In this document: piece by piece, positions 56,946-62,056 of the stretch | Numbering within the stretch: the stretch's first letter is position 1 | How the letters are laid out: the number at the start of each line of letters is the position of its first letter | Source: Bacteroidaceae bacterium | GTDB taxonomy: Bacteria; Bacteroidota; Bacteroidia; Bacteroidales; Bacteroidaceae | NCBI GenBank assembly: GCA_017458585.1 | Contig: JAFTAJ010000007.1 | Span: forward strand, 1-64,000 | Reading direction: 5' to 3' | Length of the DNA: 64,000 bases | Notes under the pieces: generated by a model | Told to the model about the DNA's origin: nothing | The model's database searches: none | Seen by the model: only the letters and a program-made list of their open reading frames with translations | Program-made: the position numbers and the translations under genes

Positions 56946-58043
56946 ATGGATTTGCTGAGCATCATAGTACCGGTGATTGTCAGTGCGATTCTAACGGCAT
57001 TGATGGTGCCCCTGATTATCCGCCTGTCGCTGAAGAAGAAACTGTGTGACACTGTTGACGAACGTACTGTCCACTCAGGCGAAGTGCCGAGGCTGGGAGG
57101 CAGTGCGTTTATTTTATCTGTCTTGGTGGCGCTGGTTGTGGCGGTGCTGATGTCTGACAGCGAGGAGATAAGGTGTTGCCTGACGGTCTGGAGCGGCTGG
57201 GTGCAGTACTGGGCGCTGATTGCCGCTGCGCTGATTATCTACTTCTCGGGCATCTGGGACGACATCAGGCACATGGGCTACAAGATGAAGTTCGTGTTTC
57301 AGTTGTTGAGCGCACTGCTGATTGTGGTGGTGGGCAACTTCTGGCTCAACGATCTGTGTGGCCTCTTTGGCATCGGGGCTCTGTCGCCCTGGGTGGGCAA
57401 GCCGCTGTCGGTGCTGTTGGTGGTGTATATCATCAACGCTTTCAACCTTATTGACGGCATTGACGGTCTGGCGTCGGCTTTGGGCTTCATCGCCACGGCG
57501 GTGATAGGTGCTGTGTTCCTGATGACGGGGCAGCATATCATGGCTGTGCTGTCGTTTGCGCTGGCGGTGTCGCTGGCGGTGTTCTTCTGCTTCAACAAGT
57601 TTGGCAGCACGCGCAACCACACGAAGATATTCATGGGTGACGGCGGTAGCCAGACAATGGGACTGATTATCGCCTTCCTTGTGATATTCATGTCGATGCG
57701 CAAGGGCGGCGAGGCATACAGTGCGGTGCAGTGGCCGGTGGTAGCGTTCTGCCTGATTATCATACCGTGTTTCGACGCGGTGAGGGTGATGGCGGGCCGC
57801 ATAAGGAGGGGCGTGAATCCTTTCCTGCCTGATCAGACGCATATCCACCATAAGCTGCTGCGCATGGGGTGCAGTGCCACTCGCACCCTCGTGACGATAG
57901 TGCTGCTCGACGTAGCGCTGGTGGTGCTTAACATAGTGCTGGCAGTGGCCGACATCGGGCTGGACAGCCGTGTGAAGATTAACCTTATCCTGGCGCTCGA
58001 CCTGCTGATATGGTGGGGAGTGTTGAGGAGATTGAAGAGTTGA
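56946..58043 (+). CDS. Polytopic undecaprenyl-phosphate phosphoglycosyltransferase (WecA-like)
   Basis: 365 aa, about ten membrane segments. All catalytic motifs of the WecA/MraY superfamily are intact: HSGEVPRLGG, the Asp pair GIWDDIRH (D105-D106), NAFNLIDGIDGLAS, FMGDGGSQ (D232) and HIHHKLL (H299-H302). It transfers a HexNAc-1-phosphate to undecaprenyl phosphate, starting a surface glycan. First gene of the glycan cluster; the GT2 gene starts 3 bp after its stop. Confidence 0.94.
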   Translation: MDLLSIIVPVIVSAILTALMVPLIIRLSLKKKLCDTVDERTVHSGEVPRLGGSAFILSVLVALVVAVLMSDSEEIRCCLTVWSGWVQYWALIAAALIIYFSGIWDDIRHMGYKMKFVFQLLSALLIVVVGNFWLNDLCGLFGIGALSPWVGKPLSVLLVVYIINAFNLIDGIDGLASALGFIATAVIGAVFLMTGQHIMAVLSFALAVSLAVFFCFNKFGSTRNHTKIFMGDGGSQTMGLIIAFLVIFMSMRKGGEAYSAVQWPVVAFCLIIIPCFDAVRVMAGRIRRGVNPFLPDQTHIHHKLLRMGCSATRTLVTIVLLDVALVVLNIVLAVADIGLDSRVKINLILALDLLIWWGVLRRLKS

Positions 58044-58046
58044 GTT

Positions 58047-58832
58047 ATGAAGATTTCGATTATAACCACTACATACAACAGCGGAGGCACAGTGGAGGAC
58101 ACGTTCCGCAGTGTGCTGGCGCAGACTCATAAGGACATTGAGTATATTGTGGTTGACGGAGCCAGCTCTGACAACTCGCTCGATATCATCAAGGAGTATG
58201 AGCCGCAGTTTGGAGGCCGTATGCGATGGATGAGCGAGAAAGACAACGGAGTGTATGACGCAATGAACAAGGGCATCCGCATGGCTACCGGCGATGTGAT
58301 AGGATTTCTTAACTCTGATGACTTCTACTACGACGAACACGTGCTTGAGGAGGTGAACCGCGCAATGGAGGGCCAGCCTGTGGACTGTGTGTATGGCGAC
58401 CTGAAGTTTGTTAAGGCTGACGACATAACGCATGTGGTGAGGGTATGGAAAGGCTCGCAGTATAAGAAGGGCGCTTTCTTGCGAGGATGGCATCCGGCGC
58501 ACCCCACATTCTATGCCCGCCGCGAGTGCTACGAGCGTCTGGGCGTATTCAACACTAAGTTCCCTGTGTCGGCTGACTTCGACCTGATGCTACGCTTCAT
58601 CGAGGTGGCCGGACTGAGCAATCGATACATACACCGTTACTTCGTAAACATGCGAATGGGCGGCGAGAGCACCGGCAGCCTGCGCAATATCATACGTGGC
58701 AACCTCGGCATCAAGCGCGCCCTGCAAGAAAACGGCTATTCGCAGTCGGGGCTTATCGTGCTGCGACGATTGCTGCCCAAAGTATGGGCCACGATGCAGG
58801 GCAAGCTGCGGCTGGCGAGGATTGAACATTGA
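58047..58832 (+). CDS. GT2-family glycosyltransferase (WcaA-like)
   Basis: 261 aa. GT-A fold: ISIITTTYNSGGTVEDTFRSVLAQTHKDIEYIVVDGASSDNS, then KDNGVYDAMNKGIRMATGDVIGFLNSDDFY (DxD-like NSDD), and HPTFYARRECYERLG. It probably adds the second sugar of the glycan. The C-terminal residues (RIEH) run into a 42-bp ATTGACC array that occupies the gap to the next gene. Confidence 0.92.
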   Translation: MKISIITTTYNSGGTVEDTFRSVLAQTHKDIEYIVVDGASSDNSLDIIKEYEPQFGGRMRWMSEKDNGVYDAMNKGIRMATGDVIGFLNSDDFYYDEHVLEEVNRAMEGQPVDCVYGDLKFVKADDITHVVRVWKGSQYKKGAFLRGWHPAHPTFYARRECYERLGVFNTKFPVSADFDLMLRFIEVAGLSNRYIHRYFVNMRMGGESTGSLRNIIRGNLGIKRALQENGYSQSGLIVLRRLLPKVWATMQGKLRLARIEH

Positions 58833-58867: not shown

Positions 58868-60709
58868 ATGGATTTTTCTACTATTCTGCTGAAGATATCA
58901 CCATTCTTTATTTCATTTGTGTTGGGACTGCTTATCATTCCCAATCTGCGGCTGACGGCCTCGAAGAAAAAGAACTTCCTACCCGACAGTGCCGACAACT
59001 TGAAGAATGGTGTGATGATAGGTGGAATAGCTTTCTTCCCCATCATACTGATTGCATTGTGCACCAGCATAGCGCTGCCGTATCTGTTTCAGATAGCGGA
59101 ACTGCGCGTCAGGGTGGAGCCTGCAGCGATGCGTATCATGCAGCTCATCGTGGGATGCTCGATATTGTTTATCGCCGGACTGAAGGACGACCTTAACGGT
59201 ACCGGCGGTTTTGTGAAGGTAACCACGCTGTTCATTGCCGCCATGATGTTCCCCGCTACGGGACTGTGGATAGACAACCTGCATGGTCTGTTTGGCATCC
59301 AAGAGTTGTCGCCCTACATCGGCATACCGCTATCCGTGCTACTGGTATGCTATATCACTGAGGCGTTCAGTCTGCTCGACGGCATCGACGGACTGAGCAG
59401 TGGGGTAGGCACTATCATTGTGTTCACCTTCCTCTTATTCAGTATTTGGTACGACTCTACGCTTATCAGTTTTGTAGCCGCCGCCACATTGGGCGTGGCC
59501 ATACCCATGTGTTTTAGGTCTTTCTTCTCGAGCAACTGGGGCAATACGCTGATGGGCAACTCGGGAGCCTATGTGCTGGGCTATATAGTCAGCTACCACA
59601 CCATTGGCCTGAGCCACAGCGAGCGTATGCCGGAGGGCATGCTCATGATATGCCTCGGTGCGCTATTTGTGCCGATGCTCGATATCATCCGCGTGATCAG
59701 TAGTCGTGTGAGGGACAACCGTACGCTGGACCGCCCCGACCGCAACCAGTTTAACCACAAGCTGTTGCGTACCGGTATGCCGCGACGGATGATAGGCGTG
59801 ACCATAGCGGGGTTGATAGGTATGTTTGTGGTGATGAACACCTACGGGGTGCTCTCTCACTGGAATCCCACCATCATGCTGTTGCTCGATGTGGCGCTGT
59901 GGATTACTATCCATCTGGTGCTCAACTATTTCATCCACGAACATCAAAGGAAAGGATTCTACAGAGAGTGGGAGAAAGCCTACGGCGAAGACTCCTGGTA
60001 TGCCAACCTGCCCCATGAAACACTCAAGCGTAAGGTGCAGACCTACGGCGACATGAATCTGCCGCCCGACAAGGTGCTGGAGGACAATATCGCCTTCATA
60101 CCCGACGGCATGAACGGCTTGGAGCGCCATGTTAAGCGAGGCATGGATTTGGTGATATCTTTCATATGCCTCATCGTGTTCTCACCGCTGATGCTGCTGA
60201 GCTACATACTGATAAAGATTGACGACGGTGGCCCCGCCATCTTCAAGCAGGAGAGGGTGGGTAGGTTCGGACATCCATTTTATATATATAAGTTCCGCTC
60301 CATGCGACAGGATGCCGAGACACAGGGCCCTGCTCTGAGCCACGCCAACGGCGACAACGACCCGCGCCTGACAAAGGTGGGCAAGTTCCTCAGGGCGCAT
60401 CATCTGGACGAGCTGCCCCAGCTCTGGAACGTGTTTGTGGGCGACATAGCGTTTGTGGGCTACCGTCCGGAGCGACATTTCTATATCGCACAGATAATGA
60501 AGGAAGACCCGCGCTACGCATTCCTCTATCAGATACGCCCCGGCGTCACCTCCTACGCCACTCTCTACAACGGCTACACCGACACTATGGAGAAGATGCT
60601 GCGACGACTGGAGCTGGACCTCTACTACCTTAAGCATCGCTCGCTGTGGTTTGATGTCAAGATATTGGGACTGACGTTCCTGAGCATCATATTTGGAAAG
60701 AAGTTTTAG
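58868..60709 (+). CDS. Fusion of a WecA/MraY-like module and a monotopic sugar-phosphate transferase
   Basis: 613 aa from the ATG at 58868. Residues 1-340 resemble the polytopic transferase encoded at 56946: Asp pair GLKDDLNGTG (D107-D108), AFSLLDGIDGLSSG, about ten membrane segments. Several catalytic positions are altered: FMGD is LMGN (N231), HIHH is QFNH (294-297), NAFN is EAFS, and the VPRLGG motif is VMIGG. After a soluble linker (about 340-420) comes a complete WcaJ/WbaP-type catalytic domain with KRGMDLVISF, FKQERVGRFGHPFYIYKFRSM, the catalytic dyad D514-E515 in HHLDELPQLWNV, and VGYRPE. It probably loads sugar-1-phosphate onto undecaprenyl phosphate, with the N-terminal half a non-catalytic module (inference). 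Confidence 0.88.
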   Translation: MDFSTILLKISPFFISFVLGLLIIPNLRLTASKKKNFLPDSADNLKNGVMIGGIAFFPIILIALCTSIALPYLFQIAELRVRVEPAAMRIMQLIVGCSILFIAGLKDDLNGTGGFVKVTTLFIAAMMFPATGLWIDNLHGLFGIQELSPYIGIPLSVLLVCYITEAFSLLDGIDGLSSGVGTIIVFTFLLFSIWYDSTLISFVAAATLGVAIPMCFRSFFSSNWGNTLMGNSGAYVLGYIVSYHTIGLSHSERMPEGMLMICLGALFVPMLDIIRVISSRVRDNRTLDRPDRNQFNHKLLRTGMPRRMIGVTIAGLIGMFVVMNTYGVLSHWNPTIMLLLDVALWITIHLVLNYFIHEHQRKGFYREWEKAYGEDSWYANLPHETLKRKVQTYGDMNLPPDKVLEDNIAFIPDGMNGLERHVKRGMDLVISFICLIVFSPLMLLSYILIKIDDGGPAIFKQERVGRFGHPFYIYKFRSMRQDAETQGPALSHANGDNDPRLTKVGKFLRAHHLDELPQLWNVFVGDIAFVGYRPERHFYIAQIMKEDPRYAFLYQIRPGVTSYATLYNGYTDTMEKMLRRLELDLYYLKHRSLWFDVKILGLTFLSIIFGKKF

Positions 60710-60772: not shown

Positions 60773-62056
60773 ATGGCTACTAACAACAATGCTATCTACG
60801 ATGCCCGTACGCTGGGCAAGCCCCGCATGGCGCTGCTTGGATTGCAGCACATGTTCGCCATGTTCGGTGCAACTGTTCTCGTTCCCCTGATTACAGGACT
60901 AAGCGTTTCGACTACCTTGCTATTCGCCGGTATTGGAACGCTTATTTTCCATTTCATCGCAAAGTGGAAAGTGCCTGCATTCCTCGGTTCTTCCTTCGCA
61001 TTCCTTGCCGGATACGCCACCGTAACCCAGATGGGTATGGACAAAGGTTTCTCGCAGACCCTCTCCCTCGACTATGCCAGCATCGGCATCTGTGCAGCCG
61101 CGCTCATCTATTTTGTTGTGGCAGCACTCATCAAAGCCTTTGGTCTCAAGAAAGTGTTGCGCTACTTCCCGCCAGTGGTGATTGGCCCGATTATTATTGC
61201 CATCGGTCTGTGTCTGTCAGGTACCGCCCTGAAGAGTTGCACCTCCGACTGGACGATTGCCCTCTTGGCTGTGACAGTGGTGGTAGTGGCTACCATTTGG
61301 GGCCGTGGACTACTCAGTATCATTCCCATCCTTCTGGGTGTGATAGTTTCCTATGTGGCGGCAGCCTGTATGGGTGATGTTGACTTCAGCGCCCTGAACG
61401 ACGCAGCCTGGATTGGCCTGCCCATCTCCCGCGAGACCACAGTGCTGGCAGTGTTTGACAATCCCGACTATGGTCTGATCATATCGAGCATCGTGGCTAT
61501 CATGCCTCTCGCAATAGCTACTGTGATGGAGCACATCGGCGATATCAGCGCCATCTCCTCCACCGTCAACAAGGACTATCTGGCAGATCCCGGATTGCAC
61601 CGCACTCTTACCGGCGACGGTGTGGCCACCTTCGTGGCAGCACTGTTTGGCGCTCCCGCCAACACCACTTATGGTGAGAACACCGGCGTGCTCAACATCA
61701 CCCGCGTGTTTGACCCCCGCGTAATCCGCCTGGCAGCCATCTTCGCCATCATCCTCGCTTTCTGCCCCAAGTTTGCAATGCTTATCCAACTGATGCCCGC
61801 CGCCACCATCGGTGGTATCTCACTACTTCTTTACGGTATGATAGTAGCTGTGGGTGTGCGCAACATGATTGAGGCTAAGGTTGACCTCGGCAAGTCACAC
61901 AACCTCGTAGTGGTAGCTCTTATCCTGGTGCTTGCCACTGGTATTACCTACGGCCTTGACGGCGGCATCGACTTTGGTCCCGTACGCCTCTCCGGTATTG
62001 CCATTGCTGCCATCGTTGGTGTGATACTTAATGCGATATTCCCGAAAGATGAGTAA
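60773..62056 (+). CDS. uraA: Uracil permease (NCS2/UraA family)
   Basis: 427 aa, 12-14 membrane segments. GLQHMFAMFGATVLVPLITGLSVSTTLLFAGIGTL is the family start; SSFAFLAGYAT, VVIGPIIIAIGLCLSG, VMEHIGDISAISSTVNKDYL (substrate-site Glu), and PANTTYGENTGVLNITRVFDPRVIRLAA follow. It imports uracil by proton symport and is followed within 2 bp by upp, completing a salvage unit. Confidence 0.95.
   Translation: MATNNNAIYDARTLGKPRMALLGLQHMFAMFGATVLVPLITGLSVSTTLLFAGIGTLIFHFIAKWKVPAFLGSSFAFLAGYATVTQMGMDKGFSQTLSLDYASIGICAAALIYFVVAALIKAFGLKKVLRYFPPVVIGPIIIAIGLCLSGTALKSCTSDWTIALLAVTVVVVATIWGRGLLSIIPILLGVIVSYVAAACMGDVDFSALNDAAWIGLPISRETTVLAVFDNPDYGLIISSIVAIMPLAIATVMEHIGDISAISSTVNKDYLADPGLHRTLTGDGVATFVAALFGAPANTTYGENTGVLNITRVFDPRVIRLAAIFAIILAFCPKFAMLIQLMPAATIGGISLLLYGMIVAVGVRNMIEAKVDLGKSHNLVVVALILVLATGITYGLDGGIDFGPVRLSGIAIAAIVGVILNAIFPKDE

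Follow-up and report, generated by a model that had tools for sequence, protein, structure and literature searches.

Introduction

The polytopic and monotopic phosphoglycosyltransferases (PGTs) are two unrelated superfamilies that are normally alternative ways of starting a glycan. The polytopic PGTs (PF00953) include WecA, TarO and MraY, and their active-site positions are referred here to DPAGT1 and MraY. The lipid phosphate is contacted by K125 in DPAGT1, which guides it, and by D117 in MraY, and a uridine pocket is formed by K70, N255, F262 and D196. The Mg ligands of DPAGT1 are N185 and D252; the D252N variant is 5-fold more active, and mutants of the DD pair, which is structural in that enzyme, retain at least 10% activity (PMC6218659).

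Among the monotopic PGTs, the large enzymes WbaP and WcaJ carry an N-terminal membrane module, a 4TM bundle with the PF13727 DUF placed between it and the PGT domain, and the 4TM+DUF region of WbaP has been linked to dimerisation and to UMP inhibition. In the Bi-PGT class a functional domain is placed on the N- or C-terminal end of the monotopic core, as in gonococcal PglB with its aminotransferase. A polytopic-monotopic PGT fusion was not described in the literature searched, a body that left most subscription papers and bioRxiv preprints outside its scope. Here, such a fusion is analysed from a 64,000-nucleotide stretch of Bacteroidaceae DNA (the window).

Results

A single reading frame joins two PGT folds

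The gene at 58868..60709 (+) encodes 613 residues in which a polytopic-PGT-like domain, a linker and a monotopic PGT follow one another, as judged from the open reading frame, Pfam matches, orthologues and a structural model. The original prediction had proposed this architecture, with a first half devoid of canonical catalysis standing where ordinary large PGTs have their 4TM+DUF module. Translation and alignment confirmed the frame, the coordinates and all residues that it quoted, and the proposal itself held. A chance frame, a frameshift or a chimeric contig can be excluded, as the fusion is one unbroken frame in 16 full-length sequences, that of the window included, and in partial ones.

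PF00953 matched residues 92-246 of the fusion with 61.7 bits, and PF02397 matched residues 423-608 with 197 bits (cut-off 27 in each case). No 4TM bundle was found in the protein, and PF13727 was absent from it at E 0.001; the same domain was detected on a control large PGT (L068:8618-9973). An AF2 model built from a 100-row alignment reached a pLDDT of 86.6 and a pTM of 0.81, and an earlier model from 16 sequences (pLDDT 56.5) was set aside. The model contains 11 long N-terminal helices, the last of which extends into a cytoplasmic helix and linker that lead into the monotopic domain. In model comparisons the N-terminal half matched MraY (Z 28.5 over 292 residues) and DPAGT1 (Z 28.1), and the C-terminal half matched PglC (Z 20.1), bearing out the two folds originally assigned.

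The WecA/MraY-fold domain (residues 1-355; 58868..59932 (+)) was delimited by the PF00953 match, the structural match and the model helices. As shown by the predicted structure and the alignment, this half keeps the fold and the 11-helix topology of its superfamily; by analogy with the known topology of WecA, 11 helices would place the C-terminal enzyme in the cytoplasm, its required side. The linker (residues 356-412; 59933..60103 (+)), assigned from alignment and model, begins as the cytoplasmic continuation of TM11 and has W368, Y372, G373, W377 and A379 as conserved residues, with a tail of the form YG(T/D)M.LP.

The small monotopic PGT domain (residues 413-613; 60104..60706 (+)), identified by PF02397 and the PglC match, shows 81% mean identity among the fusions, and its catalytic Asp-Glu pair, D514-E515 (60407..60412 (+)), is invariant in the 16 aligned rows. 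On this conservation, the monotopic half is almost certainly active. The domain has GYRPER where small PGTs usually have GPRPER, a feature common to the congeners G002 and G005.

The operon runs from an intact WecA-type polytopic PGT (56946..58043 (+); PF00953, 114.7 bits) through a WcaE-like GT2 glycosyltransferase (58047..58832 (+)), immediately upstream of the fusion, to the fusion itself. The uracil/xanthine permease that follows downstream (60773..62056 (+)) is probably outside the glycan function. The WecA-type gene has every motif, and the 825 bp originally reported between it and the fusion is the correct length; that account omitted the GT2 gene, a conserved neighbour, which fills the gap.

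The polytopic active site has been remodelled

In the window protein the DD motif is retained in the alignment within K106-D107-D108 (59183..59191 (+)), as is DGIDG (171-175). E165-A-F-S168 (59360..59371 (+)) stands for NAFN, with N165 replaced by Glu and N168, the counterpart of DPAGT1 Mg ligand N185, by Ser. N231 (59558..59560 (+)), within LMGN, stands where MGD has its Mg-ligand Asp, equivalent to DPAGT1 D252, and QFNH at 294-297 (59747..59758 (+)) replaces HIHH, its final His being present in all full-length fusions. VMIGG is found where intact enzymes have PRLGG. The changes N168S, D231N, QFNH and E165 set the protein outside the canonical WecA/MraY enzymes.

The generality of these changes was assessed at 50 columns with conservation of 95% or more among 42 intact standalone proteins, which were compared with the 16 full-length fusions. 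Fewer than 20% of the fusions retain the conserved residue at 18 of the 50, and the columns lost in all 16 include N165, N218, F228, R50 and H294 (the register of N218 is uncertain by one residue, and there is no Asn in either register). The Mg ligands N168 and D231 occur together in no fusion. Position 231 is Asn in most fusions, Ser in one and Asp in two, and it drifts, since one of the Asp-bearing proteins (L071) nests inside the Asn clade. In another clade (L072-L075) DD has become ND. D108, K117 (equivalent to DPAGT1 K125), D171 and H297 are invariant across the full-length fusions, and D174 of the uridine pocket is retained in 94%. When mapped on DPAGT1 and MraY, the lost positions fall mostly on the donor side (Mg ligands, uridine pocket and HxHH), the losses including the equivalents of MraY N255 and F262.

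New residues have become fixed at the same time. K106, E165, Q294, W224 and T227 are conserved at 94-100% in the fusions; K106, invariant there, is never the major residue in intact WecA. Moreover, dN/dS across the polytopic half is 0.036-0.093 with several pairs that were saturated at synonymous sites left out, which rules out a decaying pseudo-domain. Because new conserved residues and strong purifying selection coincide, this half is, on its sequence, remodelled and not decaying. The description of the first half as merely altered was thus right as to the residues and missed their replacements, of which K106, E165 and Q294 were found conserved when the domain pair was sought across relatives, as had been proposed.

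Not every change bears equally on activity. The exchange of FMGD for LMGN had been read as one sign of inactivity, and N231 alone is insufficient for this because the corresponding substitution raised DPAGT1 activity; the joint losses do sustain the reading, and the case for inactivity would depend on the combined absence of N168, N165, HxHH, N218, F228 and R50. The ND of L072-L075 is discounted as proof, given the residual activity of DPAGT1 DD mutants, and conservation of DD in the other fusions may only reflect folding, because the pair is structural in DPAGT1. Homologues with the full active-site set in the N-terminal half, which the original prediction had named as evidence for a real bifunctional enzyme, were looked for, and none was present among all homologues found. 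The polytopic half is thus very likely no canonical PGT, as far as sequence can tell.

The remodelled site could nonetheless act in new ways, given that E165 and K106 introduce new charges at the old site. A true bifunctional enzyme, in which a rewired site (E165/K106/Q294) transfers or hydrolyses a different lipid-linked substrate, would account for the near-complete conservation of the replacement residues, and E165 and N231 recur in another family (L131/L095), where an independently degenerate WecA neighbours a small monotopic PGT, suggesting convergence. This reading appears improbable, however: the donor pocket is gone, position 231 varies between Asp, Asn and Ser, one clade has exchanged DD for ND, and the half has been lost from G005 and is cut short in G276 (see below). 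Sensing of uridine nucleotides in the manner of WbaP is also disfavoured, as the Asn and Phe of the uridine pocket are gone in all full-length fusions. Lipid handling is favoured over nucleotide sensing because the acceptor side is kept and the donor side lost.

The fusion arose once and is not a copy of its neighbour

The fusion was found in 18 species-level MAGs of Bacteroidaceae/Prevotella, with 45-97% identity: that of the window, G007, G009, G013 (split over two contigs), G016, G186, G318, L064-L069 and L071-L075. The named carrier records are Bacteroidaceae, Prevotellaceae or Bacteroidales MAGs, many of them from rumen. In G276 (L086:7036-8067) the polytopic half is cut to its last part, the monotopic domain is intact and an unrelated gene adjoins. 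No further full fusion was found in 393 genomes of the order and 395 of the phylum (788 in total, a few shared between the draws), where the best three candidates per genome were scored and the phylum draw was held to a strict E-value. Long frames with WecA matches turned out to be WecA-GT4, WecA-WecG-like and WecA-GT2 fusions, not PGT-PGT fusions. In these an intact WecA-type PGT is joined to a GT4-type enzyme (L077-L080, approximately 770 aa), a WecG/TagA-like enzyme (L081, 636 aa) or a GT2 (L083, 630 aa), the GT4 and WecG/TagA labels of L077-L081 being assigned by eye from sequence.

All 17 fused polytopic halves included in the tree group in a single clade (support 100/99), and the fusion has one origin. 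The standalone proteins closest to them are three WecA copies with partial alterations, from another genus (L136, L142 and L143; 98/89), a sister relation that carries a long-branch warning. Each of these copies, marked by NAIPMLDDVDG or NTxSMLDDxDG, lies directly before or overlaps an intact WecA (L136:9448-12424, L142:8097-10344, L143:7845-10419; in L143 the intact gene is split over two frames), and the tandem pairs are candidate polytopic PGT heterodimers.

The intact WecA at 56946 was considered as a recent duplication source of the fused domain and rejected. It does share the operon, as originally pointed out, and it is neither parent nor recent duplicate: because it falls in a distant clade of the tree, its position beside the fusion is later or separate in origin. 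Intact WecA adjoins the fusion only among the closest relatives in the window's own clade, and crosstalk between the two copies, which had been suggested, cannot be taken as a general feature. Throughout the window's main clade the fusion is immediately preceded by the GT2 gene, except in L068, where a large PGT is found; G186, outside that clade, also has a large PGT upstream.

An intact WecA could still act as a partner from elsewhere in the genome. A search of 16 fusion genomes turned up, besides MraY and the fusion, a definite or probable additional PF00953 protein of WecA or related type in 15, and those WecA-type proteins that were read have intact motifs. In G009 no separate PF00953 protein was found, perhaps because of loss at a contig end, and G793 gave only MraY-type and fusion matches, an observation from a MAG that is not firm. 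The remodelled half might thus heterodimerise with intact WecA, coordinating or restraining the two initiating routes in their competition for Und-P. Polytopic PGTs form dimers, the standalone proteins most closely related to the fused domain are encoded next to, or overlapping, an intact WecA gene, and the two genes share an operon in the window's clade. On the other hand, WecA is common in the family regardless, it is unlinked to the fusion in other clades and apparently missing from G793, and the relation to the tandem copies is subject to the long-branch warning. Such a partnership is considered rather unlikely.

Probable deletion of the polytopic half in a congener

The congener G005 has at locus L006 a 486-aa fusion of a GT2 to a monotopic PGT. 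Its monotopic domain nests within the fusion clade (100/97), its GT2 nests among those preceding fusions in the GT2 tree, and the junction holds a linker tail (FGTMGIPSD...DFI versus YGTMGLPSD...AFI) with a local score of 36, whereas no unfused monotopic PGT scored above 22. These lines of evidence are each moderate and are in agreement; most likely the polytopic half was removed, joining the GT2 to the monotopic enzyme. Because this half could be deleted, it would be accessory to the monotopic reaction, and the module originally envisaged would not be obligatory. A further swap of the N-terminal module was seen in G305 (L145:757-2655), where a monotopic PGT of this kind is preceded, within one 633-aa frame, by a fused GT4-type glycosyltransferase.

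The secondary loss in G005, and the fact that small PGTs function without such a domain, would also suit an inert membrane anchor or assembly relic, retained only for folding and membrane insertion. Anchoring would require neither so low a dN/dS nor the specific polar residues that are newly invariant where the active site used to be, and this explanation is judged unlikely.

Genomic context points to exopolysaccharide initiation

At the related loci L067, L069 and L072-L075 the fusion lies in Wzx/Wzy-type clusters with a flippase, an EpsG-type polymerase, Wzz and glycosyltransferases. The window locus has no such cluster, its operon being WecA, GT2 and fusion only; in the window genome, which is 92.5% complete, Wza and Wzx are on another contig. 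The fusion carries the only PF02397 domain in that genome, as it does in three congeners, and since the genome has Wza and Wzx, the fusion is the likely initiator of that polysaccharide.

Discussion

The fusion protein resembles each of the described systems in part. With WecA, TarO and MraY it shares the fold, the order of 11 TM helices, DD, K117, the DGxDG Asp and the last His of HxHH; it differs from them in the joint loss of the Mg ligands, NAxN, HxHH, the uridine-pocket Asn and Phe and the PRLGG Arg, and in the attached monotopic PGT. Like a Bi-PGT it has a small monotopic core with an extra domain at one end, whereas here that domain is a membrane domain with the PGT fold of the other superfamily and apparently non-catalytic. 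As in WbaP and WcaJ, an N-terminal membrane module accessory to catalysis precedes the monotopic PGT, but it has the 11-TM polytopic-PGT fold in place of PF13727 and the 4TM bundle.

Other arrangements of monotopic PGTs were encountered. Three genomes of one genus have two adjacent, overlapping small monotopic PGT genes that belong to clearly distinct subtypes and both encode Asp-Glu (L146:2313-3511, L147:2493-3727, L148:2098-3272). In L093:414-1505 and L094:364-1389 a monotopic PGT has an N-terminal domain of approximately 150 aa of no recognised kind, and a short frame just upstream in L133 resembles a second copy of that domain.

Overall, we consider it reasonably probable that the protein is a Bi-PGT-type monotopic PGT that primes an exopolysaccharide, with a polytopic pseudoenzyme as a membrane, lipid-carrier or dimerisation module. 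The gene would provide the initiating enzyme of a Wzx/Wzy-style exopolysaccharide, its monotopic half moving sugar-1-phosphate from a UDP-sugar to Und-P. The polytopic half would no longer perform PGT chemistry and would instead dimerise and/or hold or sense Und-P beside the monotopic active site, substituting for the 4TM+DUF module of WbaP and WcaJ in a useful but accessory way. That it is an accessory membrane module in the broad sense is likely; specific binding of Und-P, suggested by the residues kept, is a more tentative proposal that may well prove wrong.

Another family of the order offers a possible parallel. At L131:4976-7564 (G508:C4) a small monotopic PGT is directly followed by a degenerate WecA-GT2 fusion with ECIN, MGN and no HxHH. 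This WecA carries E165 and N231 and falls in a different clade of the tree on a very long branch. It may be an independent pseudo-polytopic/monotopic pair, and one genome thus hints at convergence. It is conceivable, if doubtful, that polytopic PGT domains repeatedly became Und-P-handling partners of monotopic PGTs, losing the UDP-sugar site, exchanging the first Asn of NAxN for Glu, and feeding or gating the carrier, through one fusion event in the window gene and a second, separate event that gave the GT2-fused neighbour in L131.

Here a member of one PGT superfamily would have been incorporated into an enzyme of the other as a non-canonical module. This bears on the role of the extra domain in large monotopic PGTs and on the rationing of scarce Und-P, and the fusion, together with a close relative that most likely underwent a natural domain deletion, would constitute a matched pair for probing both questions.
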